Shown here in pieces: positions 12,479-37,680 of a stretch of DNA of 64,000 bases. This stretch comes from Gammaproteobacteria bacterium (GTDB lineage: Bacteria; Pseudomonadota; Gammaproteobacteria; Ga0077536): assembly GCA_016191285.1 (NCBI GenBank), contig JACPPA010000016.1, positions 62,001-126,000 of the forward strand, given 5' to 3'. The position numbers and the translations under genes were made by a program. Position 1 is the stretch's first letter. Each line of letters begins with the position of its first letter. The notes beneath the pieces are model-generated. The model was not told the origin of the DNA. It did no database searches and was given only the letters and a program-made list of their open reading frames with translations.

Positions 12479-12498
12479 TTTTCATTGGAGTAACCACT

Positions 12499-13563: not shown

Positions 13564-13633
13564 AAGTCGTTAGACAGCGCGTCGAAAGGCTGGCCTTGAA
13601 GACCACTGTCCCTGACAACTGACTCCCTCCTTC

Positions 13634-13671
13634 GCCCGGTACAACCTCGCGGTTGCCCGGGCATTTTTTTG
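13634..13671 (+). terminator. Rho-independent terminator after the DUF932 gene
   Basis: A long G/C hairpin (GCCCGG ... CAACC-TCGC-GGTTG ... CCCGGGC) is followed immediately by a run of seven T. It lies between the rightward block and the convergent recombinase gene, the expected place for a transcription stop. Confidence 0.75.
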
Positions 13672-13720
13672 TCTGTCAGCAGTGCTGACGACTTGGTCGC
13701 GGCCGATGATCGGTGGCGGA

Positions 13721-19854: not shown

Positions 19855-22800
19855 ACCAGCACCCAGCATATTTCGAGCGCATTCGCCAAAGGGCTGCGCA
19901 GCGTTGGGAGCAACTGGAACAGGACCCGGAACTCGCCGGCCCTTGGCATCAGCTCTTCAAGCAGGTGCAAAGCCCGCGGCACATCCTCTCTGAACTGCTC
20001 CAGAACGCTGACGATGCCGGAGCGACAGAAGCTTCTATTCACATCGAGGATCAGGTCTTCACGTTCGAGCACGACGGAGAGGACTTTTCGGAAGAACACT
20101 TCGCGTCGCTCTGCCGCTTTGGATACTCCAACAAGCGATCTTTGCATACGATCGGATTTCGTGGTGTGGGATTCAAGAGCGTCTTTAGCCTTGGAGACCA
20201 GGTCGAGCTCATTACGCCATCTCTTTCCATCTGTTTTCACGGGCGACGTTTTACGGAGCCCAAATGGCTGCCGACGCCGGCAGACACAAGGGGGCGAACG
20301 CGCGTTCGTGTAAAGATCAGCGATCAGCACCGACAGCGAGAGGTCGAGAAGAACCTCGAAGATTGGGTTAAGAGTCCTGTCTCCCTGCTGTTCTTCAAGA
20401 ACATCCGCCGCGTGCGAATTGGGGAACGGGAGGTCCATTGGGGCAGCCGCGGTCCAGGCCCCATTCCCGAAAGCGAATGGATGGCTCTCTCTGAGCATGA
20501 AGAAGAGGCGTGTCTTCTGATCCGATCCGAAGCAGAGGCATTTCTCGAGGAGGCACTGGCGGAGATCCGACAGGAGCGGATGCTCGGCACCGAGGAGGAT
20601 GGAGAGTTTCCTCCGTGCACAGTTGAGATCGTGCACGGTGCGAAGGGACGGCTCTACGTAGTTCTCCCAACAGGTGTAGAAACAGAACTGCCATTCGCCT
20701 GCAATGCGCCTTTCATTCAGGATCCAGCGCGCCTCAAAATCAAAGACCCTGAAACATCTCCCACGAACCGATGGTTGCTAAAGCGCGCCGGGAAACTTGT
20801 CGCATCCGCAATGTTGGATTGGCTAAACCGAGCGGCGACCTCACCTGCCGATCGCGCAGGCGCGTACGGCCTGTTTCCAGACATTGACCGCGAATGCAGT
20901 TCGCTGGAGGGCGTGTGCGGCACGATCGTTGAAGAAACCTTTGCCGAGGCAATTGACGGGAAGAACCTTCTCCTCACCGAGGACGGGCAACTTACCCCCG
21001 CGAAGCGGAGCGTCATCATTTCGACGCCGATTCTTGATGTCTGGGCGCCGGAACAGGCGGCAGTACTCTTGGATGAGGAAGGCAGACCGCCCCTTTGCCA
21101 GTATGTCGAAGCGGGCGATCGGAAGAAGCTTCTGGAATGGGGGATCGTCGACGAAATAGATAAGCAGAAGTTGATTGGCATTCTCCAGCAGAACCGTCTT
21201 CCCAAGCCAAACACCTGGCGTCAACTGTTGAATTTATGGACTTACGTTGCTCCGGAGATCACTGGCTTTCGTTATTACAAGAGCGCTAAGAACATTCGGA
21301 TCGTGCCGGTTCAAGGCAGGGACGTGCTTTATGCAGCAAGCGAGGTAGTGCGCCTCGGCGAGAAAAAGCTTTTGCAATCAGAAGACGATTGGGAGTTTTT
21401 GGCAAAGTACCTTATCGTCCTCAATCATAACTGGCCGCGCTTTCTCGCAGAACAGCGTCGAGCAGCGTCGGAGGAAAAGCCGTCCATAGATAAGGAATCT
21501 GTGGAAGGAGCATACGCCGTTCTGGAGGAGATCGGCCTCCACGACACCAGCGATGTCAGCAAGGTCATCGATCAAGTGGCAGCGGAATTCTTCTCTCAGG
21601 AAAGCATCAGCCTTCAAGAGTGTATCCAACTTGCGCAGATCGCAGCGAAGCTTGGAGCGCATGTCGGCGAAGCGTTCCGCTACGTCGCCAGGGACCGGCA
21701 CGTAAGGTCTGCTGATTCGGGTATCCTCTTCGACGAAAACGGAGCGCTTGAAGAACTGCTTCCTGAAGAGCAACGCGAAACGCAACTTCTGCATCCGGCC
21801 TATTCTGAGGCCTTCAAGTCGTGCTCAGAGGAAGAGTGGCTGAGGTGGGTAGCCTCCGGCTCCTCCGGACTGCTTACTTTCATCCCCTTCGCACAGAAGC
21901 GCGTTAGCGTCTATGGCAAGTGGCAGATCGAGCAGGAAGCGCGCAAACGTGGTCTACAAGGTGACCTGTCGTATCCGTATAAGAGCCGTCGATTCGTAGT
22001 CGAGGACTGGGACTTCGAAGAGATTTGTTGGCAGCATTGGGAGACATCGGCTACTGAGGATGAACGCCTGTGGGTCAAGCTCGCCGAACGCATTTCGGCG
22101 CAGCGGGAAGCGTATTGGGCCCGCGCCAAGACCGCTCGGCTTCTCCAGGTGGCGACGACCGGCAACACAAAGTCGATGACGTTCGCCCCGTTGCTGCCAT
22201 CATGGGCGCTCCGGCTGCGAGAACAGCCCTGCCTTCCCGATACCCGCGGCATCCACCGGAAGCCCGACGAACTTTTGCGTCGCACACCCGAGACCGAGTC
22301 ACTCATGGACGTGGAGCTGTTCGTTCACGGCCGCTTGGATCGTGAGGCCACACGCCCGCTGCTTGATCTTCTTGGGGTTCGAAGCACACCGACCGGGCCA
22401 GATCGCCTTCTCGATTGCTTGCGGGCTTTGGCGAAAGCGGAGAAGCCGCCGGTCCACGAGGTGGAGAAGTGGTATCGCCGCCTCGACCAGATGATGGAGA
22501 CCTGCTCGACTACCGATTTACAGAAGATCAAACAGGCATTCCGGTCGGAAAAGCTCATCTTGGCGCAGGATGGCATCTGGACAATGGCCACCGCCGTGTT
22601 TCTATCGTCTGACGATGAAGACGTGCCTGACGCCGCGGTGATTAGGCCCTCGGTCAGTGAGTTGGCGCTCTGGCGGAAAATCGACGTTGCTGGGCGGCCC
22701 ACCGCGGATCTCGCCATTGAGTGGATGAAGGCACTGCCATCGAGAAAGACATTGTCCCAGGAAGACGCACGCCGAGTGCGCGCGCTGCTGGTGCGGCACC

Positions 22801-24077
22801 CTATCCGGATCTGGGAGGAATGCAAACACTGGATCAACTTGGCCGGTGAGTGGGCGCCGGTGGATGACCTCGACTACGCGCTCACGATGCAGTCGCTTAT
22901 CCTTTGGCGCCACCTTCACCAGTGGGTGAAGCAGAAGACTGCGGACCTACAGCGTTTACCCGCCGAATCAACCAGCAATCCGCCATTCTTGAAATTGCCT
23001 CCGCTGTCCGCTCATGTTGAAGAACGGTTTCAGAAGAACCCCATCTTCACCGGGCCGCCGGTGAGAAAGGAATGGCTCCATATCTTCGGCGCTGAGCTGC
23101 GCCGGGTCGAGCTCGATGCCGACGAAGAAACCCTGCGGGTGCGCACGCTCGCAGAATCACTCGCCGAGACCGACTGGATTGAAACGCCAGGGCTCGAAAT
23201 CATTCCCTATATCGGTGGTACGCCGGCAGGGACGCCACGGCAGGCTGATGTGGTCTGGCTCGACCATGTTCTCTATGTCAAGCTTCTTGCAAGAGCGAAG
23301 TTAGCCCGACGGGTGCCCGAAGAGATCGGCAAAGCCTTTGCCCGACCGGACATCAAGGCTGCGCTGGACTACAGCTTCGAGCGGTCTCCTGAGGACATTC
23401 GGGAGTATCTCGAGGAGAACTTCAAGCTCGCCCCCCCCGCGGTCATTTCGGCCGAGCCGGTCGATGCCGCCGGTGTCGAAGACGCAGGCCAATCTTGTAC
23501 ACGTGCTGGAGCCGAGGACGCGGAGGACGTTGTCGAGGCATTGCCCTCCAGCAAAACTGAGGAGAAGTTGCCGACAGAAGTCGAACTCGCATTCAGCCCT
23601 GACGAGCCAGTTGGCGATGCCGAGGAAAAACAGCCCGTCATAGACGACATCAACACTCCAGAACCTCGTCCGCGCCTGGTGCCGAAGCCCGCCAGGCCCA
23701 GCATCATGGAGCGCTTCGCCAAGGCGCAGGGATTCAGGAAAGCCAGCGAGGATCGGTTCTTTCATGAGAACGGGAGCTCGGTCAGCAAGGCGAGCGGCGC
23801 GCGTTTCCCGTGGGAGCACCGCACCGCCGCCGGCGATCTCGTGCGCTACTACTGGCCGAAGGACCACTGCCTTGAGCGCGAGCCACTGCAGCTTGAGGCC
23901 GATGTCTGGAGCTTGATTGAGCAGCACCCGGAAACCTACGCGCTCATTCTTTCAGACATTGAGGGTGAACCGGTTGAAGTCACGGGCGCCCGCCTGCGTG
24001 GAATGCGCGAAGAAGGCAAAGTTACACTTTTCCCAGCAAGTTACCGACTCGTGTATGACCATGACCGCCACACATAA
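19851..24077 (+). CDS. Very large sacsin/NOV-type GHKL ATPase domain protein
   Basis: A 1,408-residue protein. The N-terminal GHKL ATP-binding fold shows ILSELLQNADDAGATEA (about 44-60; N box), FEHDGEDFSEEHFASLCRFG (about 75-94; G1) and IGFRGVGFKSVFSLGD (about 101-116; G2), the pattern of sacsin and NOV proteins. The long middle is helical without named domains, an acidic Pro/Glu-rich linker lies at about 1200-1290, and a DUF3883-like end contains YALILSDIEGEPVEV. It overlaps the helicase by 4 bases and the methylase by about 23, so the three are co-translated. The family is seen in defence loci, where an ATP-switched scaffold or sensor role is assumed. Function here is inferred. Confidence 0.8.
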   Translation: MNQHPAYFERIRQRAAQRWEQLEQDPELAGPWHQLFKQVQSPRHILSELLQNADDAGATEASIHIEDQVFTFEHDGEDFSEEHFASLCRFGYSNKRSLHTIGFRGVGFKSVFSLGDQVELITPSLSICFHGRRFTEPKWLPTPADTRGRTRVRVKISDQHRQREVEKNLEDWVKSPVSLLFFKNIRRVRIGEREVHWGSRGPGPIPESEWMALSEHEEEACLLIRSEAEAFLEEALAEIRQERMLGTEEDGEFPPCTVEIVHGAKGRLYVVLPTGVETELPFACNAPFIQDPARLKIKDPETSPTNRWLLKRAGKLVASAMLDWLNRAATSPADRAGAYGLFPDIDRECSSLEGVCGTIVEETFAEAIDGKNLLLTEDGQLTPAKRSVIISTPILDVWAPEQAAVLLDEEGRPPLCQYVEAGDRKKLLEWGIVDEIDKQKLIGILQQNRLPKPNTWRQLLNLWTYVAPEITGFRYYKSAKNIRIVPVQGRDVLYAASEVVRLGEKKLLQSEDDWEFLAKYLIVLNHNWPRFLAEQRRAASEEKPSIDKESVEGAYAVLEEIGLHDTSDVSKVIDQVAAEFFSQESISLQECIQLAQIAAKLGAHVGEAFRYVARDRHVRSADSGILFDENGALEELLPEEQRETQLLHPAYSEAFKSCSEEEWLRWVASGSSGLLTFIPFAQKRVSVYGKWQIEQEARKRGLQGDLSYPYKSRRFVVEDWDFEEICWQHWETSATEDERLWVKLAERISAQREAYWARAKTARLLQVATTGNTKSMTFAPLLPSWALRLREQPCLPDTRGIHRKPDELLRRTPETESLMDVELFVHGRLDREATRPLLDLLGVRSTPTGPDRLLDCLRALAKAEKPPVHEVEKWYRRLDQMMETCSTTDLQKIKQAFRSEKLILAQDGIWTMATAVFLSSDDEDVPDAAVIRPSVSELALWRKIDVAGRPTADLAIEWMKALPSRKTLSQEDARRVRALLVRHPIRIWEECKHWINLAGEWAPVDDLDYALTMQSLILWRHLHQWVKQKTADLQRLPAESTSNPPFLKLPPLSAHVEERFQKNPIFTGPPVRKEWLHIFGAELRRVELDADEETLRVRTLAESLAETDWIETPGLEIIPYIGGTPAGTPRQADVVWLDHVLYVKLLARAKLARRVPEEIGKAFARPDIKAALDYSFERSPEDIREYLEENFKLAPPAVISAEPVDAAGVEDAGQSCTRAGAEDAEDVVEALPSSKTEEKLPTEVELAFSPDEPVGDAEEKQPVIDDINTPEPRPRLVPKPARPSIMERFAKAQGFRKASEDRFFHENGSSVSKASGARFPWEHRTAAGDLVRYYWPKDHCLEREPLQLEADVWSLIEQHPETYALILSDIEGEPVEVTGARLRGMREEGKVTLFPASYRLVYDHDRHT

Positions 24078-27000
24078 GAAGAAACTCATCGAAGTCGCCC
24101 TCCCGCTAGACGCCATCAACAAGGCCTGTGCGCGGGAGAAGTCCATCCGCCACGGCCACCCAAGCACGCTACATCTATGGTGGGCGCGGCGGCCGCTGGC
24201 GGCAGCGCGAGCGGTGATCTTCGCGCAGATGGTGGACGATCCGTCGGCCTACGTGGACACGCTGCGCGCGGACCCGAAGCTCAAGCGCAGGGCCGAGAGC
24301 ACGCTCAAGGCCCGCTTGAAGCTGTGGGAAGAGGCCCGCGAGCTCGCCCGCAAGGCCAAGGGCACCAACCTCGTCGTGCCGGAGCCCGGACCGCAGCCGA
24401 CGCTGGACGACATGCTGTCCGACATCGAGCGGCAACGCCTCTTCCGCATCATCGAGGACCTGGTGCTATGGGAGAACACCACTAATGAGGCGGTGCTGCA
24501 GGCGGCGAGGGACGAAATCTGGCAGAGCTGGCGGCGCGCATGTGCCGAGAACGTCGACCACCCACGAGCGAAGGAATTGTTCGAGCGTAAGAAGTTACCC
24601 GCCTTCCACGACCCGTTTGCTGGGGGCGGCGCGCTTCCTCTGGAGGCCCAGCGATTGGGGCTTGAGAGCTACGCCAGCGACCTTAACCCGGTCGCCGTAC
24701 TGATCAACAAGGCGATGATCGAGATCCCGCCGAAGTTTGCGGGGCTTGCCCCCGTGAATCCCAAGTCGCGCCAGGACGAGAACTTGTTCGCGCGGGAATG
24801 GAAGGGCGCGCAGGGCCTCGCCGATGACGTGCGCTTCTATGGTCAGTGGATGCGCGACGAGGCCGAGAAGCGAATTGGCCATCTTTATCCGAGGATAAAA
24901 ATTACTGCAAAGATCGCGGAGGCGCGGCCGGACTTGATCCCGTATATCGATCGGGAGCTCACAGTTATCGCCTGGATCTGGGCACGTACCGTGAAGAGTC
25001 CGAACCCCGCCTTTGCGCAGGTCGAAGTGCCGCTTGCGTCGACATTCATGCTCTCGACCAAGCCCGGCAGGGAAGCGTTTGTCGAACCAGTGATCGAGAA
25101 AGGCAGCTATCACTTCACAGTGAAGATGGGAAAGCCCAAGGATGTGAACAAGGCAAAGAGAGGCACAAAGCTTTCGAGGGGCGCAAACTTTGAGTGCCTA
25201 ATTTCCGGGATGCCGATCACGGGCGACTACATCAAAGCAGAGGGCAAAGGCGGACGCATGGGCGAGCGCCTGATTGCGATCGTCGCTGAGGGTGACCGGG
25301 AACGGGTGTTTCTCGCGCCCTTGCCGGAGCATGAGGCGTTGGCGCGCAATGTCACGCCAGAGTGGAAGCCGGAAGGTTCATTTGTAGAAGATGCGCGAGC
25401 ATTTACGCCGTGCATCTACGGCATAAAAGAGTGGCAGCATCTTTTCACTGGCCGCCAACTGGTCGCGCTTACAACCTTGTCAGATCTAGTGAAGGGAGCG
25501 CGCGAGCGGGTGCAGCGCGACGCAGTCGTCAGCGCCCTTCCCGTCGACGGTTTGTCACTAAAAGATGGCGGCACTGGCATAACAGCTTACGCTGACGCAG
25601 TAGCAGTGTACCTGTCGTTCGCGGTAGACCGAGTCGTTGATCGTCACACGCGCATCGCGACCTGGGATTCAAGCCCATCGAAACTTCAACTTAGGAACAC
25701 TTTCGCGCGGCAGGCGATCCCGATGACGTGGGACTTTGGGGAAGGTAATCCTTTCTGTATGTCATCCGGCACTTGGACGCCGAGCGTTGAGTGGGTCTCG
25801 AAGGCTATCGACTTCTTACCAGCGAGGGGACTGGGTACGGCAACGCAAGCTGAAGCGTCATCACAGGCTATTTCGTGCGATCGCGTCATCTCTACCGATC
25901 CACCCTACTACGACAATGTCCCCTACGCTGATCTATCTGACTTTTTCTATGTATGGCTGCGCCACTCGCTAAAGCCGGTTCTACCCGATCTATTCGCCAC
26001 GCTTGCGGTACCCAAAACAGAAGAACTGGTTGCGGTTGCGTACCGTCACGATAGCAAGGCGAGTGCTGAAGCGTTTTTTCTTAATGGGATGACGAGAGCA
26101 ATGCACCGTCTCGCCGAGCAGTCGCATCCTGCTTTCCCAGTCACAATCTATTATGCGTTCAAGCAAGCTGAGAATGATGACGCCGAAGGTACCGCCAGCA
26201 CAGGCTGGGAGACTTTTCTTGACGCAGTGATCCGTGCTGGCTTTGCCACCACTGGCACTTGGCCAATGCGCACGGAACTTGGTAATCGCATGCGCGGAAT
26301 GGCGTCCAATGCTCTCGCTTCCAGCATCGTCTTAGTCTGTCGCAGGCGTGCACCTGACGCCGCCACTGCCACGCGTCGCGAATTTGTCGCTGCGCTGAAG
26401 GGTGAATTGTCATTGGCACTCTCTCATCTGCAGCACGGCAACATCGCGCCAGTTGACCTCGCGCAGGCTGCCATCGGCCCAGGCATGGCGATCTTCACTC
26501 GTTACACTGAAGTGCTCGATGCCGGAGGTAAGCCGGTCAGTGTGCGTGAGGCGCTTTCGCTAATTAACCAAACCCTAGACGAGGCGTTGGCCGAACAGGA
26601 GGGCGATTTCGACGCCGATAGCCGTTGGGCGCTGACGTGGTTCGAGCAGTCGGGCTTCGCCGAGGGTGAGTACGGAGTGGCCGAACAACTCAGCAAATCG
26701 AAGAACACTAGTGTCGCCGGAATGGTCGAGGCCGGCATCCTCGAATCGAAGCGCGGCAAGGTGCGCCTGCTCGCGCCCGCGGACCTGCCGGCCGACTGGG
26801 ACCCAGCGATTGATCCACGCCTCACTGCCTGGGAGATCGTTCACCATCTGATCCGTGTGCTCGAAAGTGGCGGCGAAGGCGCGGCGGGCGAGCTCGTCGT
26901 AAAGCTGGGCGCCAGGGCTGAAATCGGCCGCGAATTGGCCTATCGCCTATACACACTCTGCGAGCGCAAAAAGCGCGCTGCTGAGGCGCTCGCTTACAAC

Positions 27001-27096
27001 GCCCTCGTGCAGAGCTGGCCCGAAATAGTCCGCCTGGCACGAGAGCGTGCGAGCGCGCAGCCCAGTCAAGGCGGTCTATTCGATACGGAGGAGTAG
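24055..27096 (+). CDS. DUF1156-containing DNA methyltransferase (DPPY motif)
   Basis: About 1,013 residues from the ATG at 24055 (24061 also possible). The DUF1156 N-terminus is clear: IEVALPLDAINKACAREKSI followed by HPSTLHLWWARRPLAAARA. The SAM-binding motif is HDPFAGGGALPLEAQRLG (about 184-201) and the catalytic motif is STDPPYYDNVPYADLSDFFY (about 612-631), as in N6-adenine or N4-cytosine methylases. A C-terminal segment of about 250 residues follows without a named fold. It overlaps the sacsin-like gene. In a defence operon it would mark host DNA as self; the base and sequence methylated cannot be read from the protein. Confidence 0.87.
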   Translation: MTMTATHKKKLIEVALPLDAINKACAREKSIRHGHPSTLHLWWARRPLAAARAVIFAQMVDDPSAYVDTLRADPKLKRRAESTLKARLKLWEEARELARKAKGTNLVVPEPGPQPTLDDMLSDIERQRLFRIIEDLVLWENTTNEAVLQAARDEIWQSWRRACAENVDHPRAKELFERKKLPAFHDPFAGGGALPLEAQRLGLESYASDLNPVAVLINKAMIEIPPKFAGLAPVNPKSRQDENLFAREWKGAQGLADDVRFYGQWMRDEAEKRIGHLYPRIKITAKIAEARPDLIPYIDRELTVIAWIWARTVKSPNPAFAQVEVPLASTFMLSTKPGREAFVEPVIEKGSYHFTVKMGKPKDVNKAKRGTKLSRGANFECLISGMPITGDYIKAEGKGGRMGERLIAIVAEGDRERVFLAPLPEHEALARNVTPEWKPEGSFVEDARAFTPCIYGIKEWQHLFTGRQLVALTTLSDLVKGARERVQRDAVVSALPVDGLSLKDGGTGITAYADAVAVYLSFAVDRVVDRHTRIATWDSSPSKLQLRNTFARQAIPMTWDFGEGNPFCMSSGTWTPSVEWVSKAIDFLPARGLGTATQAEASSQAISCDRVISTDPPYYDNVPYADLSDFFYVWLRHSLKPVLPDLFATLAVPKTEELVAVAYRHDSKASAEAFFLNGMTRAMHRLAEQSHPAFPVTIYYAFKQAENDDAEGTASTGWETFLDAVIRAGFATTGTWPMRTELGNRMRGMASNALASSIVLVCRRRAPDAATATRREFVAALKGELSLALSHLQHGNIAPVDLAQAAIGPGMAIFTRYTEVLDAGGKPVSVREALSLINQTLDEALAEQEGDFDADSRWALTWFEQSGFAEGEYGVAEQLSKSKNTSVAGMVEAGILESKRGKVRLLAPADLPADWDPAIDPRLTAWEIVHHLIRVLESGGEGAAGELVVKLGARAEIGRELAYRLYTLCERKKRAAEALAYNALVQSWPEIVRLARERASAQPSQGGLFDTEE

Positions 27097-27226
27097 CCCG
27101 TGGCCATCACGTTCGAGGAACGCATCGCTTTAGTCGACCCAATAAGTTCGCGAGAACCTCGAGAAGACCGCAGAGGCGCCCGGGTCGGCGACGCCTGATG
27201 GAACCCAAGGGTGAGGGGACTCGAAA

Positions 27227-27793
27227 TTGATCGTCGGTAGCTGCTTTGGTGGCGATGACGGTGAATATCTGGCTTCGATCCAGCATGGAGTGTACGGCCA
27301 AGCAATTCAGATTATGGTATCGACGTGCAATCGCTACGCAGCCTTCGCCAAGGGCGTACTGGATGACATTAGCAAGGCCTTGCTGGATTACATTAACCAC
27401 CGCCGCTGGGGCAACATCTACAGGTGTGATCACCGCGCGCTCCAGGATGCTCATGATCTTCTCGCCGCAGTCTGGCGCTTTCGATACGATTCTCGTCAGG
27501 GGGCGCTGACGTTTGGAGACATTGAGTCACCCAAGGCAGCCGAATTCCCCTAGCTCGATTGGCTCCGCAATGAAGTCTCCAATTGGATCGACCGACCCTA
27601 CTTGGTTCGATCGGTGCAGGTGATCTTGGTGAACCAGAACAAATTTACCGGCTATTTGGCTGAGTCCAAGTTGTGCGTCGACATCATGCACTGTTTCCCC
27701 GATGTCCCTTGGACAAGGGGTCGGTACGACGCTCACACAAAAAGACTTGCGGACTTCATGGAAACCCTCAGGAACGCAGCAAACGAGAAGTAA
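27227..27793 (+). pseudogene. Broken small gene between the methylase and the DUF499 ATPase (in-frame TAG)
   Basis: A single reading frame of 188 codons is interrupted only by an amber TAG at 27551-27553. Before it the frame encodes EYLASIQHGVYGQAIQIMVS and RALQDAHDLLAAVWRFRYDS; after it, LDWLRNEVSNWIDRPYLVRS and LAESKLCVDIMHCFPDVPW, ending RLADFMETLRNAANEK just before the DUF499 start. The only start is a weak TTG. A 33-codon GTG frame (27100-27198) with a GGAGGAG ribosome site precedes it in another frame and may be the detached N-terminus. I do not recognise the family. It looks like a decayed cassette gene, though readthrough or sequencing error cannot be excluded. Confidence 0.55.
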
Positions 27794-27796
27794 CGC

Positions 27797-30700
27797 ATGG
27801 CCATTACAAACCAGGAGCGGATCGGCAAGGCGATGGAACTGCTTCGAGCAGGGCTTGCGCCCTTCGTCGAGCGTGAGTTCAGGAGCCAACACCAACAGAA
27901 AGCACCCGAAGAGGCGCGCCGTTACTTCGGCGATGATCGGACGATTGGCAAAAAGCCGATTGAAGAGTGGGACGTGGCTGCGCTGCTCAAATTGATGTGG
28001 GAGGCGTGGAACGAGATCTTTGGGCGAACTCTCGGCCGCGCCGAGCGATCGCTGGTGCAAGAGTTGCGCGACTGCCGCAACAAGTGGGCGCACCAGGAAC
28101 CGTTCTCAAGCGACGACGCCGACCGTGCGCTCGATTCAATGGCGCGGCTGCTCACAGCAGTCTCGGCGCCACAGTCGGACGAGGTCGGCAAGATGAAAAT
28201 GGAGCTGCGCCGGCTCACCTTCGACGAACAGGTTCGCAGCGAAAAGCGCAAGGCCGGCGGCTCGTTGATCGAGGTAACCGGGACCGGCACGCTTAAGCCC
28301 TGGCGCGAAGTAGTCACACCTCATGCGGACGTTGCGAGCGGGCGCTACCAGCAGGCGGAGTTCGCCGCTGATCTCTGGCAGGTGCACTTGGGCGAAGGAT
28401 CGGACGAGTACAAAAAGCCCCAGGAGTTTTACCGCCGAACCTTTCTTACGGAGAGCTTGAAGCAACTGCTAGTAGGCGGCGTACAACGCATCTCGGGTAA
28501 GGGCGGCGACCCGGTGATCCAACTCCAGACCAACTTTGGCGGCGGCAAGACGCACTCCATGCTGGCGCTCTACCATCTGTTTTCAGGGGTGAATGCCAGC
28601 GAGTTGGTGGGAGTCGACGCGGTGTTAGCTGATGCGGGGATGATGAGCCTGCCCACGGCCAAATGCGTGGTGCTGGTGGGCAACAAGATCTCGCCTGGTA
28701 ATCCCATCACCAAAGCTGATGGCACAGTGGTGCGCACATTGTGGGGCGAGTTGGCCTGGCAGCTTGGCGGTAAGGCAGCGTATGCGCGCATCAAGGATGA
28801 CGATGAGAACGCCACCAACCCAGGCGACGTGCTACGTGAGCTATTCAAGGAATACGGGCCTTGCCTGATCCTGATCGATGAGTGGGTTGCGTATGCTCGT
28901 CAGCTTCATGACCAGAGCGACCTGCCGGCGGGCGGCTTCGAGACCCAGTTCACCTTCGCCCAGGCACTGACCGAGTCGGCCAAGCTCGCCGGAAACTGCA
29001 TGCTGGTGATCTCGCTGCCTGCGTCGGACACGTCGGGCTCACCCCATACGCGAGCGGACGATGTGGAGGTGGGCGGTATCCGCGGGCGCGAGGCGCTCGA
29101 CCGACTGCGCAACGTGGTCGGGCGAGTGGAATCATCATGGCGTCCGGCCACAGCGGAAGAGGGATTCGAGATCGTGCGGCGGCGGCTGTTCGAGCCGCTC
29201 GCAGGGCAAGAATCATTCAAGCAGCGCGACGTCACCGCCCGCGCCTTTGCAGACCTTTATCACGCGCAGAGCGCGGAGTTCCCGCCCGAGTGTAAGGGGG
29301 GTGATTACGAGAAGCGCATCCAGGCCGCCTACCCCATTCACCCAGAGATTTTCGACCGGCTTTACACCGATTGGTCGACGTTGGTGAAATTCCAACGCAC
29401 GCGCGGTGTGCTGCGCCTGATGGCAGCGGTGATCCACAGTCTATGGGAGAAGGGTGACCGCAATCCGCTGATCCTGCCGTCCACAGTGCCAATCGACGAC
29501 CCGCGTGTGCAGTCCGAGCTGACGCGCTACCTCTCCGACAACTGGGCGCCAATCATTGAGAAGGACGTGGACGGGCCGAACTCGCTGCCGCTCAAGATAG
29601 ATGCCGAGCAACCCAACCTTGGCAAGCTGCATGCGACGCGGCGCGTTGCACGCACAATCTATCTGGGGTCGGCTCCGACGGCGACAGCAGCGCATCGCGG
29701 GCTCGAGGACCGTCGCGTGAAGCTCGGTTGCGTGATGCCGGGCGAATCGCCTGCGGTGTTCGGTGACGCGTTACGAAGGTTGGGGGCGGCCGCAACCTAC
29801 CTTTATCAGGATGGCCCGCGATTCTGGTACGCAACGCAACCGACGGTCACCAAGCTCGCCGAGGATCGCGCCGAGCAGCTCAAGCGCGACACCGATAAGG
29901 TGGCGCAGGATTTGGATGATCGGTTGCGGGCTGATCTGCGGAAGGCCGGTGACTTCGCGCGCATCCATCCCCTGCCGCGCTCGGGTGCCGACGTTCCTGA
30001 CGACCTCGATGCACGGTTGGTGGTATTGCCCGCAGAGCATCCCTACAGCAAGGAGACTGGCAATGCGGCCGAAACCATGGCGCGGGCCATTCTTGAGTCG
30101 CGCGGCAATACCCCGCGCTTGTACCGCAACACGCTGGTCTTCCTCGCCGCAGACAAGGTGCGCTTGCAAGACCTGGACGAGGCTGTGCGAAAATTTCTGG
30201 CATGGGAGTCAATTCTGGCCGAGAGAGTGGCACTCAATCTCGATCCGCACCAGGTGAAACAGGCCGAAACGCAATTGCAGGCTGCGGATGGCGCGGTGAC
30301 GGCGCGATTACCCGAGACCTACCAGTGGTTGTTAGTGCCGGAACAAGTTAATCCGCAGGCAGCGATCACTTGGCAGTCAATTCGACTTTCGGGTAGCGAC
30401 CCGTTGGCGGTGCGGGCGAGCAAGAAGTTGCGCAGCGAGGAATTCTTGGTCGCCGCGCTCGGCTCGACTATTTTGCGTAAGCACCTCGACAACGTTCCGC
30501 TCTGGCGGGGCGAGAACGTTGCAATCAAGCAGCTCGTCGAAGACTTCGCGCGCTACCTTTACCTGCCGAGGCTCGCAGGGCCCGATGTGCTGGTCAACGC
30601 CTGCCGCGACGGGGTGGCCTTGCTGACTTGGCAGTCAGATACCTTCGCTTATGCGGAAAGTTTCGATGATGCGGCGGACAGGTATCGCGGTTTACGCACA

Positions 30701-31123
30701 GGGCAGCTGGTAAACCTTTCATCCTATGACTCAGGTGTGCTGGTTAACGCTGAGGTTGCGCGACGACAGAGCGATACGGAAGTCCCGCCTTCCGCGCCGC
30801 CAGGGACATCTCCCCTGGCTCAGCCTGGCCAGTCCCCTAAACCCGACGACATTGGAACTACGGCAACGGCGCTGAAGCCTACCTCGCTTCCGCGACGCTT
30901 TCATGGGGTAGTGACTCTCGATACCGCTCGTGTCGGCCGCGATGCCGGCAGGATTGCTGAAGAAGTAATCGCGCATCTCGCCGGGTTGGTTGGGGCCGAT
31001 GTGACAGTGACGCTGGAAATCCATGCTGATGTTCCGTCTGGAGCCTCTGATACTGTAGTCCGCACCGTGACAGAGAATTGCAGGACGCTTAAGTTTTCTG
31101 ACCACGGGTTTGAGTCAGAGTGA
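27797..31123 (+). CDS. DUF499 family AAA-type ATPase
   Basis: A 1,108-residue ATPase. Residues 1-110 form a helical Swt1/HEPN-like region (LVQELRDCRNKWAHQEPFSSDDA). The ATPase core begins at about 170; Walker A is LQTNFGGGKTHSMLALYHLF (about 240-259) and Walker B is CLILIDEWVAYARQL (about 355-369), both diagnostic for DUF499. The C-terminal part is less conserved and has a Pro-rich linker near 990-1030. DUF499 ATPases recur beside DUF1156 methylases in defence loci. The RNCRNKWAH-type motif (here RDCRNKWAHQ) resembles HEPN/Swt1 RNase-linked segments, so an RNA-cleaving activity is possible but unproven. The ATG at 27797 follows the broken gene by three bases. Confidence 0.85.
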   Translation: MAITNQERIGKAMELLRAGLAPFVEREFRSQHQQKAPEEARRYFGDDRTIGKKPIEEWDVAALLKLMWEAWNEIFGRTLGRAERSLVQELRDCRNKWAHQEPFSSDDADRALDSMARLLTAVSAPQSDEVGKMKMELRRLTFDEQVRSEKRKAGGSLIEVTGTGTLKPWREVVTPHADVASGRYQQAEFAADLWQVHLGEGSDEYKKPQEFYRRTFLTESLKQLLVGGVQRISGKGGDPVIQLQTNFGGGKTHSMLALYHLFSGVNASELVGVDAVLADAGMMSLPTAKCVVLVGNKISPGNPITKADGTVVRTLWGELAWQLGGKAAYARIKDDDENATNPGDVLRELFKEYGPCLILIDEWVAYARQLHDQSDLPAGGFETQFTFAQALTESAKLAGNCMLVISLPASDTSGSPHTRADDVEVGGIRGREALDRLRNVVGRVESSWRPATAEEGFEIVRRRLFEPLAGQESFKQRDVTARAFADLYHAQSAEFPPECKGGDYEKRIQAAYPIHPEIFDRLYTDWSTLVKFQRTRGVLRLMAAVIHSLWEKGDRNPLILPSTVPIDDPRVQSELTRYLSDNWAPIIEKDVDGPNSLPLKIDAEQPNLGKLHATRRVARTIYLGSAPTATAAHRGLEDRRVKLGCVMPGESPAVFGDALRRLGAAATYLYQDGPRFWYATQPTVTKLAEDRAEQLKRDTDKVAQDLDDRLRADLRKAGDFARIHPLPRSGADVPDDLDARLVVLPAEHPYSKETGNAAETMARAILESRGNTPRLYRNTLVFLAADKVRLQDLDEAVRKFLAWESILAERVALNLDPHQVKQAETQLQAADGAVTARLPETYQWLLVPEQVNPQAAITWQSIRLSGSDPLAVRASKKLRSEEFLVAALGSTILRKHLDNVPLWRGENVAIKQLVEDFARYLYLPRLAGPDVLVNACRDGVALLTWQSDTFAYAESFDDAADRYRGLRTGQLVNLSSYDSGVLVNAEVARRQSDTEVPPSAPPGTSPLAQPGQSPKPDDIGTTATALKPTSLPRRFHGVVTLDTARVGRDAGRIAEEVIAHLAGLVGADVTVTLEIHADVPSGASDTVVRTVTENCRTLKFSDHGFESE

Positions 31124-31306: not shown

Positions 31307-32453
31307 ACAAGTAGCGAATATAAGCATTGATGTCGTCCTTCGCGCTGGAATTGAGTGAAAAGTCGCGAGAACGCGTCGCTTATCGCCCCTCGCATGGTTG
31401 TTTCCAACCAGCGAGGCGCACACCAGACCGATCTAGCCTACAACGCGCGCAGCAAGCGCCGCCGCATGATGTACAAGTTCGTCAGCGCACAAGTCACGAA
31501 TAGCCGGTGCGCGTTCTTCTCCAAGCCCCGATAGCGTGTCTTCGCAAAGCCGAACACCCGCTTGATGACCAGGAACAGATGTTCGACCTTGGCCCGAACA
31601 CTCGACTTGGTCTTGTTCTTCGCCCGCTCGACCTCATCGACCACGCCCTTGCGACGATAGCGCCGGTGGGTCATGTCCAAGGCATTCGGCGCACACCGAC
31701 TGATGACCTCGCCCTGGCCTTGATAGGCCGAGTCGCCCCACACCCGTGTCTCCTCGCCATGCAGCAAATCGGGCAGACAAGTCGCATCGTGCACGTTGGC
31801 CGCTGTCGCGGCGACCGAATGAATAACCTTGGTCCGGCTATCGACGCCGATATGCGCCTTCATACCGAAGAACCACTGATTGCCCTTCTTCGTTTGATGC
31901 ATGTCAGGGTCACGCGTGCGGTCTTTGTTCTTGGTCGATGGCGGAGCGCTGATGATCGAGGCATCGACTATCGTGCCCTTGCCAATCTCGATGCCGTGGG
32001 TCTCAAGATAATCATGCACGCGCTGAAAGAGCTTCTTGCCGAGTTTGTTCCGCTCCAGAAGGTGGCGAAACCGGCATACCGTGGTCTCGTCGGGGGCCGC
32101 CATCTGACCGAGGTCGAGGCCGATGAAGCGGCGCATCGACACCGAATCGTACAGCGCATCTTCGACCGCCGGATCTGACAGGTTGAACCACTGCTGCAGA
32201 AAATAGATGCGCAGCATCATTTCGAGCTCTTTGGGCGGGCGCCCGTCGCCAGCCTTGGGATACTTCGGCGCAACCAGCGCGCACAACTCGGTCCATGGCA
32301 CGATGCGGTCCATCTCGTCGAGAAACTTCTCCCGTCGCGTCGTCTTCGCGTACTTTTCAAAGCCCGTGCCCAACGTCAGTTGCTTGCTCATCGCCTACCT
32401 CACCGTCGTCCGAACAACTGCATGATCAGATCGGGCACTTATGCAGAAGTTCC
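31296..32453 (-). mobile_element. IS5-family insertion sequence, 1,158 bp, with TTAG target duplication
   Basis: The ends are imperfect inverted repeats: left GGAACGTCTGAACAAGT and, read on the other strand, right GGAACTTCTGCATAAGT (13 of 17 identical). The element is flanked on both sides by the tetranucleotide TTAG (31292-31295 and 32454-32457), which fits the YTAR duplications made by IS5-group elements. It carries one complete transposase gene on the minus strand and lies at the very 3' end of the P4-type integrase gene. Confidence 0.85.
31438..32391 (-). CDS. IS5-family transposase (DDE)
   Basis: A complete 317-residue transposase beginning MSKQLTLGTGFEKYAKTTRR. DDE residues are visible as GTIVDASIISAP (first Asp), VWGDSAYQGQGE (second Asp) and the Y-R-E-like region SSVRAKVEHLFLVIKRVFGF with the Glu, then TRYRGLEKN. 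The N-terminal FLQQWFNLSDPAVEDALYDS region is typical of the IS5 group. It cuts and pastes its own element. No frameshift or stop is seen, so it may be active. Confidence 0.93.
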   Translation of the reverse strand: MSKQLTLGTGFEKYAKTTRREKFLDEMDRIVPWTELCALVAPKYPKAGDGRPPKELEMMLRIYFLQQWFNLSDPAVEDALYDSVSMRRFIGLDLGQMAAPDETTVCRFRHLLERNKLGKKLFQRVHDYLETHGIEIGKGTIVDASIISAPPSTKNKDRTRDPDMHQTKKGNQWFFGMKAHIGVDSRTKVIHSVAATAANVHDATCLPDLLHGEETRVWGDSAYQGQGEVISRCAPNALDMTHRRYRRKGVVDEVERAKNKTKSSVRAKVEHLFLVIKRVFGFAKTRYRGLEKNAHRLFVTCALTNLYIMRRRLLRAL

Positions 32454-33625
32454 TTAGATGTCGAAAACACAGCCCAGGCCGCCATAAGGTCGGCTCGCTT
32501 GTTGAATAAATCTGTCCGGTTGTACGCGGCTTCCGCTTTATTCTTGATTGTATGCGCCAGCGCGGCCTCGCAGACATCACTAGGAAAGTTGGTACATTCG
32601 GCAGCCCAATCGCGAAACGATGATCGGAAGCCATGAACGGTGATGTCTTTTCCTAATCGGCGCACGGCCATGAGGAATGTCATATTCGATAGCGGCTTTT
32701 GGGGTTTGATGCCCGGAAATACGAACTGATTCTCGGTCGACAATTTCTTTGCTTGTTTGAGTATCTCGACACTGCGCGGAGATAGGGGCACACGGTGCTC
32801 ACGCTTGGCTTTCATGCGGCTGGCTGGGATTGTCCATAGCGCTGCTTCCAGGTCGAACTCACTCCACTGGGCCGCAAGAATTTCATTGGTTCGGGTCGCA
32901 GTCAGGATTAGCAACTCGAAAGCGAGGCGCGCTGACTCGGTAGCATCGGATTTCCGCAACAGTCGAATGAATGCAGGAACGTCGGCATAGGCTAACGCTG
33001 CATGATGTTCGGCGCGGATTGTTTGTCTGGGTAGTACTTTCGTCAATCCGTCGCAAGGGTTGTCGCCAGGGCGGAAGCCCAATGCCTTGCACCAATCGAA
33101 GACCATTTTGATCCGCTGGCGGACCCGTTTCGCGGTTTCGGGCTTGTCCTGCCAAATCGCGAGAAGCGCAGCTTTTACGTCATTGGTATCCACTCCGTCG
33201 ACACGTTTATTGCCGAAGATCGGGAATGCGTATTCGGTGAGGGTGTTTATCCACTGCGCTGCATGTTTCGGGTTCTTCCAACTGCCCGAGTGTTCAGCGT
33301 GGACTTTCTTAGCGGCTTCCTCGAAAGTCGGGATTTCAATCACGGCCTTACGGCGTTCGGCTAGTGGATCGCCGCCGCTGCGGGCTAACTTCCGCATTTG
33401 CGCGGTGAGTTCACGTGCCTCTGCCAAGGTCACGAGACTGATGCCCCCCAGGCCAATGTCGCAACGTTTGCCTTTGATAACTGTTCTAAGAACCCAGCGC
33501 TTGGCGCCGGACGGATCCACTACTACGTAGAGGCCATTGCCGTCGGCGTAGCGCCCCGGCGTTGCGAGCGCCCGGATTGCTACCGCGGTGAGCGCCTTTG
33601 AAGGATGCTTGCCTTTGGTAGCCAT
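32426..33625 (-). CDS. P4-type tyrosine integrase with its last codons supplied by the IS element
   Basis: About 399 residues from the ATG at 33625 (MATKGKHPSKALTAVAIRAL matches family starts; an upstream ATG at 33679 is also in frame). The N-terminal DUF4102-like domain shows GRYADGNGLYVVVDPSGAKR. The catalytic set is present: ATRTNEILAAQW (Arg), TVHGFRSSFRDWAAE (HxxR) and ALAHTIKNKAEAAYNRTD (His, Tyr). The final residues KELLHKCPI come from the IS end; without the insertion the frame would read STSK then TAG, so the core enzyme is intact. These integrases usually insert at tRNA 3' ends, and a tRNA-Ser-like end lies about 150 bases upstream of the start. Confidence 0.87.
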   Translation of the reverse strand: MATKGKHPSKALTAVAIRALATPGRYADGNGLYVVVDPSGAKRWVLRTVIKGKRCDIGLGGISLVTLAEARELTAQMRKLARSGGDPLAERRKAVIEIPTFEEAAKKVHAEHSGSWKNPKHAAQWINTLTEYAFPIFGNKRVDGVDTNDVKAALLAIWQDKPETAKRVRQRIKMVFDWCKALGFRPGDNPCDGLTKVLPRQTIRAEHHAALAYADVPAFIRLLRKSDATESARLAFELLILTATRTNEILAAQWSEFDLEAALWTIPASRMKAKREHRVPLSPRSVEILKQAKKLSTENQFVFPGIKPQKPLSNMTFLMAVRRLGKDITVHGFRSSFRDWAAECTNFPSDVCEAALAHTIKNKAEAAYNRTDLFNKRADLMAAWAVFSTSKELLHKCPI

Positions 33626-33772
33626 TCGAATATCCCACATCCCGTACCACATAATATGTGGGATGGCAGTGGATTTCAATGGAAGTCTCTGGGAGAGAGA
33701 ATCACATAACTATATGTAAATAAAAAACAAAACGGATTTTATCGGATGGCGTTGGACCCTGCAAATACGGAC

Positions 33773-33840
33773 TCTCTCTCCGCCAGATCAAAAAGAAAGG
33801 CCCCACGTGGGGCCTTTCTTTTTGATCTGGCGGAGAGAGA
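33773..33840. repeat. Perfect 68-bp palindrome containing a tRNA-Ser 3' end: probable attachment site
   Basis: Positions 33773-33806 are exactly the reverse complement of 33807-33840, with no unpaired centre. Each arm starts TCTCTCTCCGCCA, identical to the 3' acceptor end of many bacterial tRNA-Ser genes including CCA, then GATC and an A-rich G/C hairpin half. No tRNA body (anticodon or T arm) exists on either side. P4-type integrases recombine at tRNA 3' ends, and such an integrase gene starts about 150 bases away, so this is probably an att remnant or junction. Its head-to-head symmetry is unusual. Confidence 0.65.
33790..33823. terminator. Bidirectional terminator at the palindrome centre
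   Basis: The centre of the palindrome reads as A5-G-AAA-GGCCCCAC paired with its complement ending in T5. A G/C-rich stem flanked by A-run and T-run is a rho-independent terminator on both strands. Such a terminator is expected just after a tRNA-Ser gene, and here it separates the integrase from hsdM. Confidence 0.6.
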
Positions 33841-34009
33841 AATGCAGGTTCCCACCAAACCAAAGGTAGTGGACAGGCTGTGTCAGAATGCATTTCATCG
33901 TCTGCGGTTTAACTCAAACGCTGAGAACTGCCAGTGTGGCTGATCATCCTAGCTGCACGTGAGATTTCCCGGTGGCGATCGCCCGCTATGAATCGATGAC
34001 ATTTATCGA

Positions 34010-36352
34010 GTGCAACCCATAGTGGATCAGGCAACCCACAACAAGATCGTCTCTTTCATTTGGGGCATCGCCGACGATGTGCTGCGCGATCTCTTCAAGC
34101 GCGGCAAGTACCCGGACGTGATCTTGCCCCTGTGCGTTATCCGGCGCATGGACGCAGTGCTCGAGCCGACCAAGCAGCAAGTGCTCGATACCAAGAAGAT
34201 GCTCGATACGGCCCTCATTACCGCGCAGCGCGCGGCGCTCTGTGACGCCGCGGGTCAAGCCTTCTACAACACCTCGAGGTTCACCCTGCGCGATCTCAAA
34301 TCGCGCGGCAGCCAGCAGCAACTCCTCGCCGATTTCGAGGACTATTTGAACGGCTTTTCGCCGAATGTTCAGGACATCCTCGAGAACTTCAAGTTTCGCA
34401 ATCAGCTGCAAACGCTGTCCAAGGCCGACGCCATCGGCACGCTGATCAACAGATTCCTAGCGCCCGACATCGACCTCTCTCCCGCCGGCATCGACAATCA
34501 CGCGATGGGTACGGTCTTCGAAGAGTTGGTCCGCAAGTTCAACGAGGACAACAACGAAGAAGCGGGCGAGCACTGGACGCCACGCGACGCGGTGCGCCTA
34601 ATGGCGAACCTGGTGTTCCTGCCCATCGATTCTGAGATCAAGTCCGGCACCTACTTGCTTTACGACTGCGCCTGCGGCACGGGCGGCATGCTCACCGTGG
34701 CGGAGGAAACACTCGCGACGATCGCCGCGAAACGCAATCAGCAAGTGAAGTGTCTGCTCTACGGCCAGGAGATCAACCCCGAGACCTATGCCGTCTGCAA
34801 GGCCGACATGTTGCTGAAAGGCGAGGGCGAGAGCGCCGATCACATCGTCGGCGGCGCGGAATGGTCCACGCTTGCGCACGACGCATTCCCGGCGCAGGAG
34901 TTCGACTTCATGCTCGCTAATCCACCTTACGGCAAGAGCTGGAAGAAGGATCTCGAGGATATGGGCGGCAAGGACGGGATGCGCGACCCGCGCTTCAAGG
35001 TGATGCACAAGGGCGAAGAACTTTCGCTTGTCACGCGCTCCAGCGACGGCCAGATGCTCTTTCTCGCCAACATGGCGGCGAAGATGAACGCCAAGTCCGC
35101 CCTCGGCAGCCGCATCGCCGAGGTTCACAATGGCAGCTCGCTTTTTACCGGCGATGCCGGCCAGGGTGAGAGCAATATTAGGCGCTGGCTGATCGAGAAC
35201 GACTGGCTCGAGGCCATCGTCGCCCTGCCCCTCAACCTCTTTTACAACACCGGCATCGCTACCTACATTTGGGTGCTGTCGAACAAGAAACCTACGCATC
35301 GGCAAGGTCAGGTGCAGCTCATCGATGCGACGCAGTGGTTCAAACCGCTGCGCAAAAACCTGGGCAAGAAAAACTGCGAGCTCGCGCCTGAGGACATCGA
35401 TCGCATCAGCCAAAGTTTTCTCGAATTCAAGGAAACTCCCGAGTCGAAAATTTTCCCCAACGCCGCCTTCGGCTACTGGAAGGTTACCGTCGAACGCCCG
35501 CTGCGCCTGCACAGTCAGTTGACCCTCAAGGCCATCGAGACCTTGCGCTTCGCCGCGGGGGATGACGATCTGCGCGCTGCGTTGTATGAGGAGTTTGGCG
35601 ACGAGTTGTTCAACAATTTCTCGAAGGTCGCTGCCATGTTGGAGAAGCACCTTGCCGCTTGGGGCAGTGATGAAGAAGAGGGTGACGACGAAGATGGCGG
35701 CACGAAGAAAGGACTACCGGAGAAGAAAAAAAAGAAACTGCTCGACCCGAAGACCTGGGAACGCGACGGTCGTCTGGTCGAAGTCGCTTTGATGCTGCGC
35801 GAGGTGCTAGGTGACGTGCTCTTCGAGGATCACAATGTCTTCTGCGACCGCGTAGATGTTGCGCTCAAGACGGCCGGCATCAAACTCCCCGCCGCCGACC
35901 TCAAGCAAATCCTCAAAGCCGTGAGCTGGCGCATCGAGACCGCGTCGCCCGTCATCGCCAAGGCGCACAAGCCCGGCAAAGCCAAGGCCGATCCGCTGCG
36001 CGGCTTGTTCTCCCTCGCCCCCATCGGGGGAGAGGGTTGGGGTGAGGGGGCAAGGGCCAAGGAAGCCATCGTCGAATACGAACCCGATTCTGATCTGCGC
36101 GACACCGAGCAGGTGCCGCTGCTGGAAGAGGGCGGCATCGAAGCCTTCATCCGCCGCGAGGTGTTGCCCTACACGCCGGATGCGTGGATCAAGGAAGACG
36201 CCACCAAGATTGGCTATGAGGTGAGCTTCACCCGGCACTTCTACCAGCCGCAACCGCTGCGGACTCTTGAAGAAATCAGCGCCGACATTCTCGCCATCGA
36301 GAAAGAGGCCGAGGGGCTGCTGGATGGGCTGCTTAAAGGGGGGCCATCGTGA
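34010..36352 (+). CDS. hsdM: Type I restriction-modification methyltransferase subunit
   Basis: A 780-residue HsdM beginning at a GTG (MQPIVDQATHNKIVSFIWGI). The N-terminal helical domain is followed by the SAM motif LYDCACGTGGMLTVAEETL (about 217-235) and the catalytic NPPYGKSW (about 303-310), typical of N6-adenine methylation. A lysine- and acid-rich low-complexity stretch lies at about 550-585. A copy of a genomic G-rich repeat is inserted in frame at about residues 668-681 (SLAPIGGEGWGEGA). HsdM needs HsdS for specificity; neither hsdS nor hsdR is present here. It overlaps the DUF1016 gene by four bases. Confidence 0.92.
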   Translation: MQPIVDQATHNKIVSFIWGIADDVLRDLFKRGKYPDVILPLCVIRRMDAVLEPTKQQVLDTKKMLDTALITAQRAALCDAAGQAFYNTSRFTLRDLKSRGSQQQLLADFEDYLNGFSPNVQDILENFKFRNQLQTLSKADAIGTLINRFLAPDIDLSPAGIDNHAMGTVFEELVRKFNEDNNEEAGEHWTPRDAVRLMANLVFLPIDSEIKSGTYLLYDCACGTGGMLTVAEETLATIAAKRNQQVKCLLYGQEINPETYAVCKADMLLKGEGESADHIVGGAEWSTLAHDAFPAQEFDFMLANPPYGKSWKKDLEDMGGKDGMRDPRFKVMHKGEELSLVTRSSDGQMLFLANMAAKMNAKSALGSRIAEVHNGSSLFTGDAGQGESNIRRWLIENDWLEAIVALPLNLFYNTGIATYIWVLSNKKPTHRQGQVQLIDATQWFKPLRKNLGKKNCELAPEDIDRISQSFLEFKETPESKIFPNAAFGYWKVTVERPLRLHSQLTLKAIETLRFAAGDDDLRAALYEEFGDELFNNFSKVAAMLEKHLAAWGSDEEEGDDEDGGTKKGLPEKKKKKLLDPKTWERDGRLVEVALMLREVLGDVLFEDHNVFCDRVDVALKTAGIKLPAADLKQILKAVSWRIETASPVIAKAHKPGKAKADPLRGLFSLAPIGGEGWGEGARAKEAIVEYEPDSDLRDTEQVPLLEEGGIEAFIRREVLPYTPDAWIKEDATKIGYEVSFTRHFYQPQPLRTLEEISADILAIEKEAEGLLDGLLKGGPS
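36011..36052 (+). repeat. G-rich dispersed repeat inserted in frame inside hsdM
   Basis: The 22 bases at 36028-36049 match an intergenic copy at 49250-49271 with one mismatch (GAGAGGGTTGGGG versus GAGAGGGCTGGGG). Preceding bases form an inverted repeat CGCCCCCATCGGGGG. Related HsdM proteins, as remembered, pass directly from the DPLRGLF-like segment to VEYEPDSDLRDTEQ, so this looks like a repeat insertion that kept the frame. Confidence 0.6.
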
Positions 36353-37680
36353 AGAAGAAAGCCAATCCTTCACCCAAAAAACCCCGGCACTCCGTGCTGC
36401 CGCCAGTGGGGCGCGAAAAACTTAACCCGGGCGCCGAGATAGAACCGCCCGCGCTCGTGGATGCGGCGGGCCTCCTCTCGGACTTGCGCAGCCTCATACA
36501 GTCCGCACGCCAGCGGATTGCGACAGTCGCCAACTCCACCCAGACGTTGTTGTATTGGTATGTGGGGCGGCGCCTCTTGAATGAGAATCTTCAAGGCGGG
36601 AGGGCCGCGTACGGAAAACAAATTCTCGTGACTGTGTCACGAGAATTGACAGCGGAGTTCGGCCAGGCGTTCACCCTCCGCGCGTTGTATCGCGCCATTC
36701 AATTCTCTCAATGCTTCTCCAATCAAGAAATTGTGTCGACACTGTCGACACAATTGAGCTGGAGCCACTTCATCGAGTTGCTGCCGATCAAGGACCCACT
36801 GGCCCGCGATTTCTACGCCGAAATGTGCCGCATCGAGCGTTGGGATGTGCGCACCTTGCGACTGAAGATCGGCGGCATGTTGTTCCAGCGCACCGCGCTT
36901 TCCAGAAAACCGGATGCCGTTATCTCGGCGGAGATCGCCAAGCTCCGGGACGGGCAGCTAACCCCTGACCTCGTCTTTCGCGATCCGTACTTTCTCGACC
37001 TGCTGGGACTCACAGGAGCCTATAGCGAACGCGATCTGGAGAGCGCCATCCTGCGCGAGATCGAAGGCGTCCTGCTGGAGCTGGGTACTGGCTTTACCTT
37101 CGTCGCCCGACAAAAGCGCATGAGCGTCGGCAAGGACGATTTTCATCTCGACTTGCTCTTCTTCCACCGCCACCTCCGCCGGCTGATTGCCGTCGAATTG
37201 AAGCTGGAATCTTTCCAGCCCGCGCATGTTGGCCAGATGGAGCTATACCTGCGGTGGCTGGACAAACACGAACGCGCGCGTGGCGAGGAAGCTCCGATCG
37301 GACTCATCCTGTGCGCCGCCGCCGATGCCGAGCAGGTGGAGCTGCTTGAGCTCGATGCCAAATCCATCCGCGTCAGCGAATACCTCACGGAGCTGCCGCC
37401 GTTGCCGCTGCTCTGCGCCCGGCTGCACCAGGCGATAGAACATGCGCGGGAGAACGCCGCCCGTCGCTTTGCATGTAGAACACCGCGTCCATCCGGACCT
37501 TGCCATCGACCTTGGCATGCAAGTCTTCGCTGGCCATTTTATTGCGGGCCGCGACGGCGAGCTCTGCAGCCGGGTGCTCGCGAAACTTTTCGACGATTAG
37601 CTTGTAGATCGTGTCGGCCTCCGTGCGGTGCGCGCCGCCCAGCTGCGTCAGGCATTGCGCAAGACCGAGCTGAACATTGA
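36349..37680 (+). CDS. DUF1016 (YhcG-like) PD-(D/E)XK nuclease domain protein with a foreign C-terminal tail
   Basis: The first ~373 residues are a DUF1016 protein. The N-terminal DUF1016_N domain includes SARQRIATVANSTQTLLYWY, VGRRLLNENLQGGRAAYGKQ and LSWSHFIELLPIKDPLARDF. The nuclease-like core holds HLDLLFFHRHLRRLIAVELK with the D and ExK residues. After ARENAARR (about 37468) the frame continues for 70 residues that are simply the antisense of the TPR gene; this tail is not part of the family. Homologues often stand between hsdM and hsdS. The gene has been joined here to unrelated DNA, losing at most a few native residues. Activity could persist. Confidence 0.82.
   Translation: MKKKANPSPKKPRHSVLPPVGREKLNPGAEIEPPALVDAAGLLSDLRSLIQSARQRIATVANSTQTLLYWYVGRRLLNENLQGGRAAYGKQILVTVSRELTAEFGQAFTLRALYRAIQFSQCFSNQEIVSTLSTQLSWSHFIELLPIKDPLARDFYAEMCRIERWDVRTLRLKIGGMLFQRTALSRKPDAVISAEIAKLRDGQLTPDLVFRDPYFLDLLGLTGAYSERDLESAILREIEGVLLELGTGFTFVARQKRMSVGKDDFHLDLLFFHRHLRRLIAVELKLESFQPAHVGQMELYLRWLDKHERARGEEAPIGLILCAAADAEQVELLELDAKSIRVSEYLTELPPLPLLCARLHQAIEHARENAARRFACRTPRPSGPCHRPWHASLRWPFYCGPRRRALQPGARETFRRLACRSCRPPCGARRPAASGIAQDRAEH

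Follow-up and report, generated by a model that had tools for sequence, protein, structure and literature searches.

A perfect 68-bp palindrome at positions 33773-33840 of the 64-kb stretch of gammaproteobacterial DNA analysed here (the window) very probably once followed a tRNA-Ser(GCT) gene as its native downstream DNA and is now stranded at the distal end (attR) of a genomic island, orphaned because an element with a P4-type integrase inserted at the tRNA 3' end. An orphan tRNA-tail palindrome of this kind would be a readable scar, showing where an island has its distal end and which tRNA gene was entered.

The palindrome and the tRNA-Ser genes of its genome

The two arms of the palindrome (33773-33806 and 33807-33840) are 34 nt each, 100% complementary and 0 nt apart, as an earlier sequence-only reading of the window had described, and each contains 13 nt of a tRNA-Ser tail followed by half of a terminator-like hairpin, the whole running from tRNA-Ser 3' tail through terminator to inverted tail. 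The runner-up among zero-spacer palindromes on the same contig (C40, 342 kb) has arms of only 12 nt, so the 68-bp palindrome is not a product of chance. Its position, C40:95773-95840, is remote from either end of the contig, and the genome contains a single copy of it. Its RNA hairpin has an ACGU loop, and the absence of a spacer thus means merely a loop that is self-complementary by accident. ARAGORN detected zero tRNAs in the window and likewise zero across all of C40, in agreement with the earlier observation that no tRNA body is present on either side. The features of the region are as follows.

32426..33679, minus strand: P4-type tyrosine integrase gene (open reading frame and domains; a relative in genome G018 is 98% identical in amino acids)
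33645..33652, plus strand: TACCACAT, part of an inverted repeat upstream of the integrase gene (from sequence; function putative)
33765..33771, plus strand: ATACGGA, putative element-side half-site of the crossover core, corresponding to GGCGGA- or CCGGA-type half-sites in related elements (eight element ends compared)
33772..33785, plus strand: attR core, 14 nt, equal to the tRNA-Ser(GCT) 3' end (tail comparison), with a probable division, based on eight element ends, into a 7-nt overlap CTCTCTC (33772-33778) and a half-site TCCGCCA (33779-33785)
33773..33840, no strand: perfect 68-bp palindrome of tRNA-Ser tail, terminator and inverted tail (arm comparison, single genome copy)
33786..33827, no strand: palindromic terminator-like sequence with A-tract, GC stem with ACGT loop, and T-tract (sequence, fold and native counterparts)
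33828..33840, minus strand: inverted tRNA-Ser tail, 13 nt, which opens an RtT-like repeat in relatives (relatives compared)

The genome of the window (G000) harbors four tRNA-Ser genes, namely GCT on contig C14, GGA on C47, TGA on C53 and CGA on C50. The 13-nt tail of the palindrome has the sequence of the 3' end of tRNA-Ser(GCT) (C14:6393-6483), which bears out the earlier claim that the arms carry tRNA-Ser 3' ends, and the direct repeat common to this gene and the window is, as a correction of the 13-nt tail, 14 nt long (33772-33785). Identity with the window site extends over 12 nt in GGA and 10 nt each in TGA and CGA. The GGA gene on C47 was ruled out as the partner, given its 12 nt against 14 nt, and a different integrase follows it. 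The intact tRNA-Ser(GCT) thus shares the tail, as the earlier reading required of a tRNA-Ser gene elsewhere in the genome, yet it lacks a terminator: AT-rich, island-like DNA follows its CCA. Its 5' neighbors, as read from the sequence, appear to be lysC and csrA, preceded at greater distance by alaS and recA. Since the tail repeats the end of tRNA-Ser(GCT) and the C14 copy is without a terminator, 33772-33785 can be read as the distal attachment site (attR), the remainder of the palindrome presumably being displaced native DNA.

Native counterparts at intact tRNA genes also support the earlier assignment of the centre, with its A-tract, GC stem and T-tract, as terminator sequence. Downstream of tRNA-Ser(CGA) on C50, the native order begins with a terminator-like hairpin and continues with an inverted tail of 7 nt, an RtT-like unit and a direct tail. 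In the same genome, tRNA-Glu(TTC) precedes a palindromic, terminator-like hairpin and then 7 nt of its own tail in inverted orientation.

The element end and the two putative ends of the island

The integrase contains Arm-DNA-bind_3, Phage_int_M and Phage_integrase domains above cut-off, and its gene starts ~93 bp from the palindrome and reads away from it. Before insertion, the locus would have consisted of tRNA-Ser, CCA, a palindromic terminator, an inverted copy of the tail and sometimes an RtT-like repeat. The integrase would then have recombined attP with the last 14 tRNA bases (the 7-nt overlap CTCTCTC plus TCCGCCA), keeping the whole tRNA at one island end and displacing a copy of the tail, the old terminator and the inverted tail to the other, beside the integrase gene. 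Excision would rejoin CGCCA to GATCAAAAAG. The octamer TACCACAT is possibly an arm-type integrase site, as it resembles sites beside tRNA-Ser(GCT) on C14.

Displaced tRNA fragments are a standard trace of genomic islands, according to PMC4383910 and PMC9897764. As in the P4-type tRNA islands described in the Islander paper (PMC4383910), which have a regenerated tRNA at one end, a displaced 3' fragment at the other and the integrase beside the attachment site, the window combines integrase domains, an adjacent attachment site and a displaced tRNA 3' fragment. In contrast to the islands of that account, the fragment in the window is just 14 nt long and lies within a perfect palindrome, and the integrase is at the distal end. 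The palindromic setting of the displaced fragment is explained by the host terminator, which mirrors the tRNA tail.

The same element end occurs before other terminators in two further genomes. In G018, the DNA is 96% identical to window positions 32454-33824 and agrees closely as far as the tail; past the tail, the hairpins of the two genomes differ and are merely similar, and an inverted tail and a full RtT-like unit follow in G018. In G024, a third distinct terminator lies beyond the same element end, and to the right of the inverted tail come ordinary-looking genes, among which the RtT model R1 (described below) finds no RtT at the corresponding locus, L161. This locus (CAMCBY010000124.1) was treated as the same contig as G024:C124, the junction sequence matching; its record is titled Klebsiella pneumoniae, yet G024 belongs to the window's own family, and the label looks wrong. 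The junction in each genome repeats the tail of its own tRNA-Ser, over 14 nt of GCT in the window, 18 nt of CGA in G018 and 23 nt of GCT in G024, the repeat in the window thus being shorter than in the other two. The tRNA-Ser(CGA) of G018, like the tRNA-Ser(GCT) of G000, is without a terminator after CCA. The G018 attR also has 16 nt in common with its own tRNA-Ser(GGA), whose palindrome is intact.

Further elements with such an integrase end at a tail and terminator in G014 and G003. When eight element ends are placed side by side, a CGGA-type half-site and a TCCGCCA half-site are common to all, and a 7-nt overlap fits the spacing in seven of them, the spacing being longer in locus L176; the strand-exchange points are putative. 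A palindromic terminator was entered by 7/8, the exception being G013, whose related integrase ends at a tail that lacks a palindrome. The tail joined by the element is the direct one in the element ends examined. The earlier proposal that the neighboring P4-type integrase uses a tRNA end as its crossover region therefore agrees with the element boundary at the tail and the tail repeats in three genomes. In a genome of the same genus, locus L053 carries at 1452-1709, beside an integrase, a pair of 89-nt direct repeats separated by 169 bp; at the end of each stand a tRNA-Ser tail and half of a terminator.

The candidate island ends sit on separate contigs, C14 with tRNA-Ser(GCT) and C40 with the palindrome, and these may carry the two ends of one island or of an island tandem. 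No second copy of the tail (<=2 mismatches) was found at a plausible place on C40, and a location of the other island end on this contig was rejected on that ground. The genes flanking the palindrome are split over different contigs in relatives of the genus. Catabolic genes are present among ten proteins tested from the 62-kb part of C40 that precedes the window; 6/10 gave strong NCBIfam matches, and none of these six belongs to a mobile-element family. With the tRNA and the palindrome on different contigs and chromosome-like genes to the left, a single island between the two would have to be of very large size unless the chromosome has been rearranged, so tRNA-Ser(GCT) would be parted from its terminator by a rearrangement or by a large island of composite nature. 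A query of plasmid and phage collections with positions 33640-34012 returned zero matches.

tRNA-Ser palindromes in other bacteria and competing explanations

A search of 369 genomes of the class with the pattern tail-N25..55-inverted tail found 8 sites in 7 genomes, with an intact tRNA-Ser at one side of 7/8; only the site in the window is without one. Named genomes yielded at least 118 stretches with the pattern, a lower bound from a non-random sample in which some loci come from one genome, and a viral collection yielded 3. Such palindromes are thus not unusual in related bacteria, contrary to the earlier statement that so stable a structure is normally selected against. Among the matches listed, 106/121 sites abut exactly one tRNA-Ser (50 GCT, 39 GGA, 16 TGA and 1 CGA), 0/121 abut two and 15/121 abut none. 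A palindromic terminator with a mirror tail directly 3' of tRNA-Ser genes therefore appears mostly ordinary in many proteobacteria. The 15 tRNA-less sites among the matches listed include four cut by the locus edge (L114, L136, L137 and L157), L161, which starts 91 bp after the contig start, L125 inside an RtT-like array, L160, which is unlike the rest, and L210, L227 and L229, which carry the tRNA 3' part only (L227 and L229 being viral contigs).

A window-type integrase stands beside 2/15 orphan palindromes, at 37 bp in L176 and 155 bp in L216 with the same geometry, vs 0/106 tRNA-bearing sites, among the matches listed; the screen used three queries, with the C20 integrase left out, and reached as far as the fetched locus, up to ~13 kb.

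An alternative scenario, which we consider unlikely, is a double attachment site, in which two elements inserted in opposite directions into both inverted tails and left the palindrome between them. Both sides do look foreign, with an integrative conjugative element (ICE) and Hma defence genes on the left, and a type I methylase, DUF1016 and lower GC near 39-45 kb on the right. The right flank beyond the palindrome matches 0/36 family genomes, and the missing RtT body and foreign-looking DNA to ~44 kb make a second insertion there possible. However, the fetched DNA beyond the inverted tail of the 106 tRNA-bearing sites holds no integrase of this type, G024 equally lacks an RtT in this place and continues into ordinary-looking genes, and no tail copy with <=2 mismatches is present on the right-hand side near the window. 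The result at the 106 sites, together with the joining of elements to the direct tail, argues against the earlier suggestion of a symmetric site for insertion in either direction. As to a junction of two elements, also suggested earlier, neither an integrase nor a tRNA-Ser tail was found to the right, though that side looks foreign.

Local replication template switching at the terminator hairpin, with no involvement of the integrase, is very improbable as the source of the orphan palindrome. Perfect stems are common among the matches listed (48/121 sites with a loop <=8, and one zero-loop palindrome in 121), and the inverted tail tracks its own tRNA, running on into the mirror of the tRNA T arm in L054, L076 and L164. 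This process would account for inverted tails, but not for the missing tRNA or the element boundary at the tail, and it is weakened by the element end common to G018 and G024. The least credible alternative is an assembly artefact (fold-back or false join), since although palindromes are hard for assemblers and the genome consists of 60 contigs, the palindrome lies 95 kb inside its contig and the same arrangement, with other terminators, stands beside related integrases in separately assembled genomes. Against the stranding of native tRNA-Ser(GCT) downstream DNA at an island end count the split contigs, the lack of an RtT body in the window, the G013 end without a palindrome, a null result of the terminator consensus scan, the 16-nt match to GGA in G018 and the short 14-nt repeat.

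The mirror tail, the terminator and RtT-like repeats

The RNA of the palindrome folds with -64.5 kcal/mol (z -14), and the A-tract, GC hairpin and T run are visible by eye; the hairpin may stop transcription in both directions. The consensus scan found 0 terminators at the palindrome, which counts against a simple terminator reading; the probable cause of this null result is a stem that includes both the A-tract and the T-tract. Bidirectional intrinsic terminators likewise have an A-tract, GC hairpin and T-tract, but the stem in the window also takes in the 3' end of the mature tRNA and the mirror copy of that end.

The mirror tail matches its own tRNA. Among 30 tRNA-Ser(GCT) loci chosen by tRNA alone (including that of the window's genome), 5 are followed by >=8 nt of an inverted copy of their own tail; the full set of 73 distinct tRNAs in this test also gave 5, vs 0/74 upstream and 3/1104 with swapped tails. 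No description of a mirror tail that follows its own tRNA was found in searches of the literature on RtT and tRNA tail palindromes, and this is the part without a description found, the palindrome being otherwise of known kinds.

The inverted tail often opens an RtT-like repeat, and a strict-pattern motif was counted at 33/106 sites among the matches listed. Beyond the inverted tail of the window's palindrome, no RtT body is detected by R1 (-1.1 bits, E 1.1), a home-made sequence-only model of 23 sequences for which RNAalifold gave no pairs; its hits in L043, L058 and L231 arise by construction, because all three are among the 23. In E. coli, RtT repeats are liberated from the transcripts of tRNA operons. 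Their presence in such operons is described in PMC4986893, which cites Bosl and Kersten 1991. Like RtT (RF00391), the repeats here are units downstream of tRNA genes; the units here have the inverted tail of their tRNA first and its direct tail last. In contrast to RtT, two resembling units in L091 score 30.5-33.7, below the gathering score of 45, and the window retains the inverted tail alone. RF00391 matched 0/25 genomes, including that of the window, with a positive E. coli control, and Rfam at gathering score gave 0 matches in window positions 20000-50000.

The extension into the T-arm mirror suggests that inverted tails may have arisen when the 3' half of the tRNA was copied by fold-back. 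Terminators of tRNA-Ser genes with a mirror tail are widespread, and a mirror tail that follows its own tRNA bears on the origin of RtT repeats. For one G018 tRNA-Ser(GCT) transcript, the predicted minimum loses the cloverleaf when the inverted tail is included, and the cloverleaf forms without it; this prediction concerns one sequence and ignores folding order. It motivates the idea, unlikely on the evidence, that the mirror tail is a retained functional part of tRNA-Ser genes: on read-through, the long hairpin would capture the tRNA 3' end and block tRNA folding, so that tRNA would come only from properly terminated transcripts. If true, RtT repeats would have been elaborated from a copy of the 3' half of the tRNA made by fold-back.

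Elsewhere in the window, a PFGI-1-like ICE remnant lies at 4489-14587, with ICE_PFGI_1_parB and PFL_4669 family proteins above cut-off, RadC and a second integrase at 13721-14587. A complete Hma-like anti-phage system occupies 16258-31123, where the models for HmaA helicase, HmaB methylase and HmaC ATPase match near full length, and a 1408-aa open reading frame between HmaA and HmaB matches none of the PHROGs. At 34010-37680, a type I methylase gene is directly followed by a DUF1016/YhcG nuclease (PDC-S02) gene, and 60619-61133 contains ~8 tandem copies of a 52-bp unit with an inverted repeat (TGGATTCCGGC...GCCGGAATGA).
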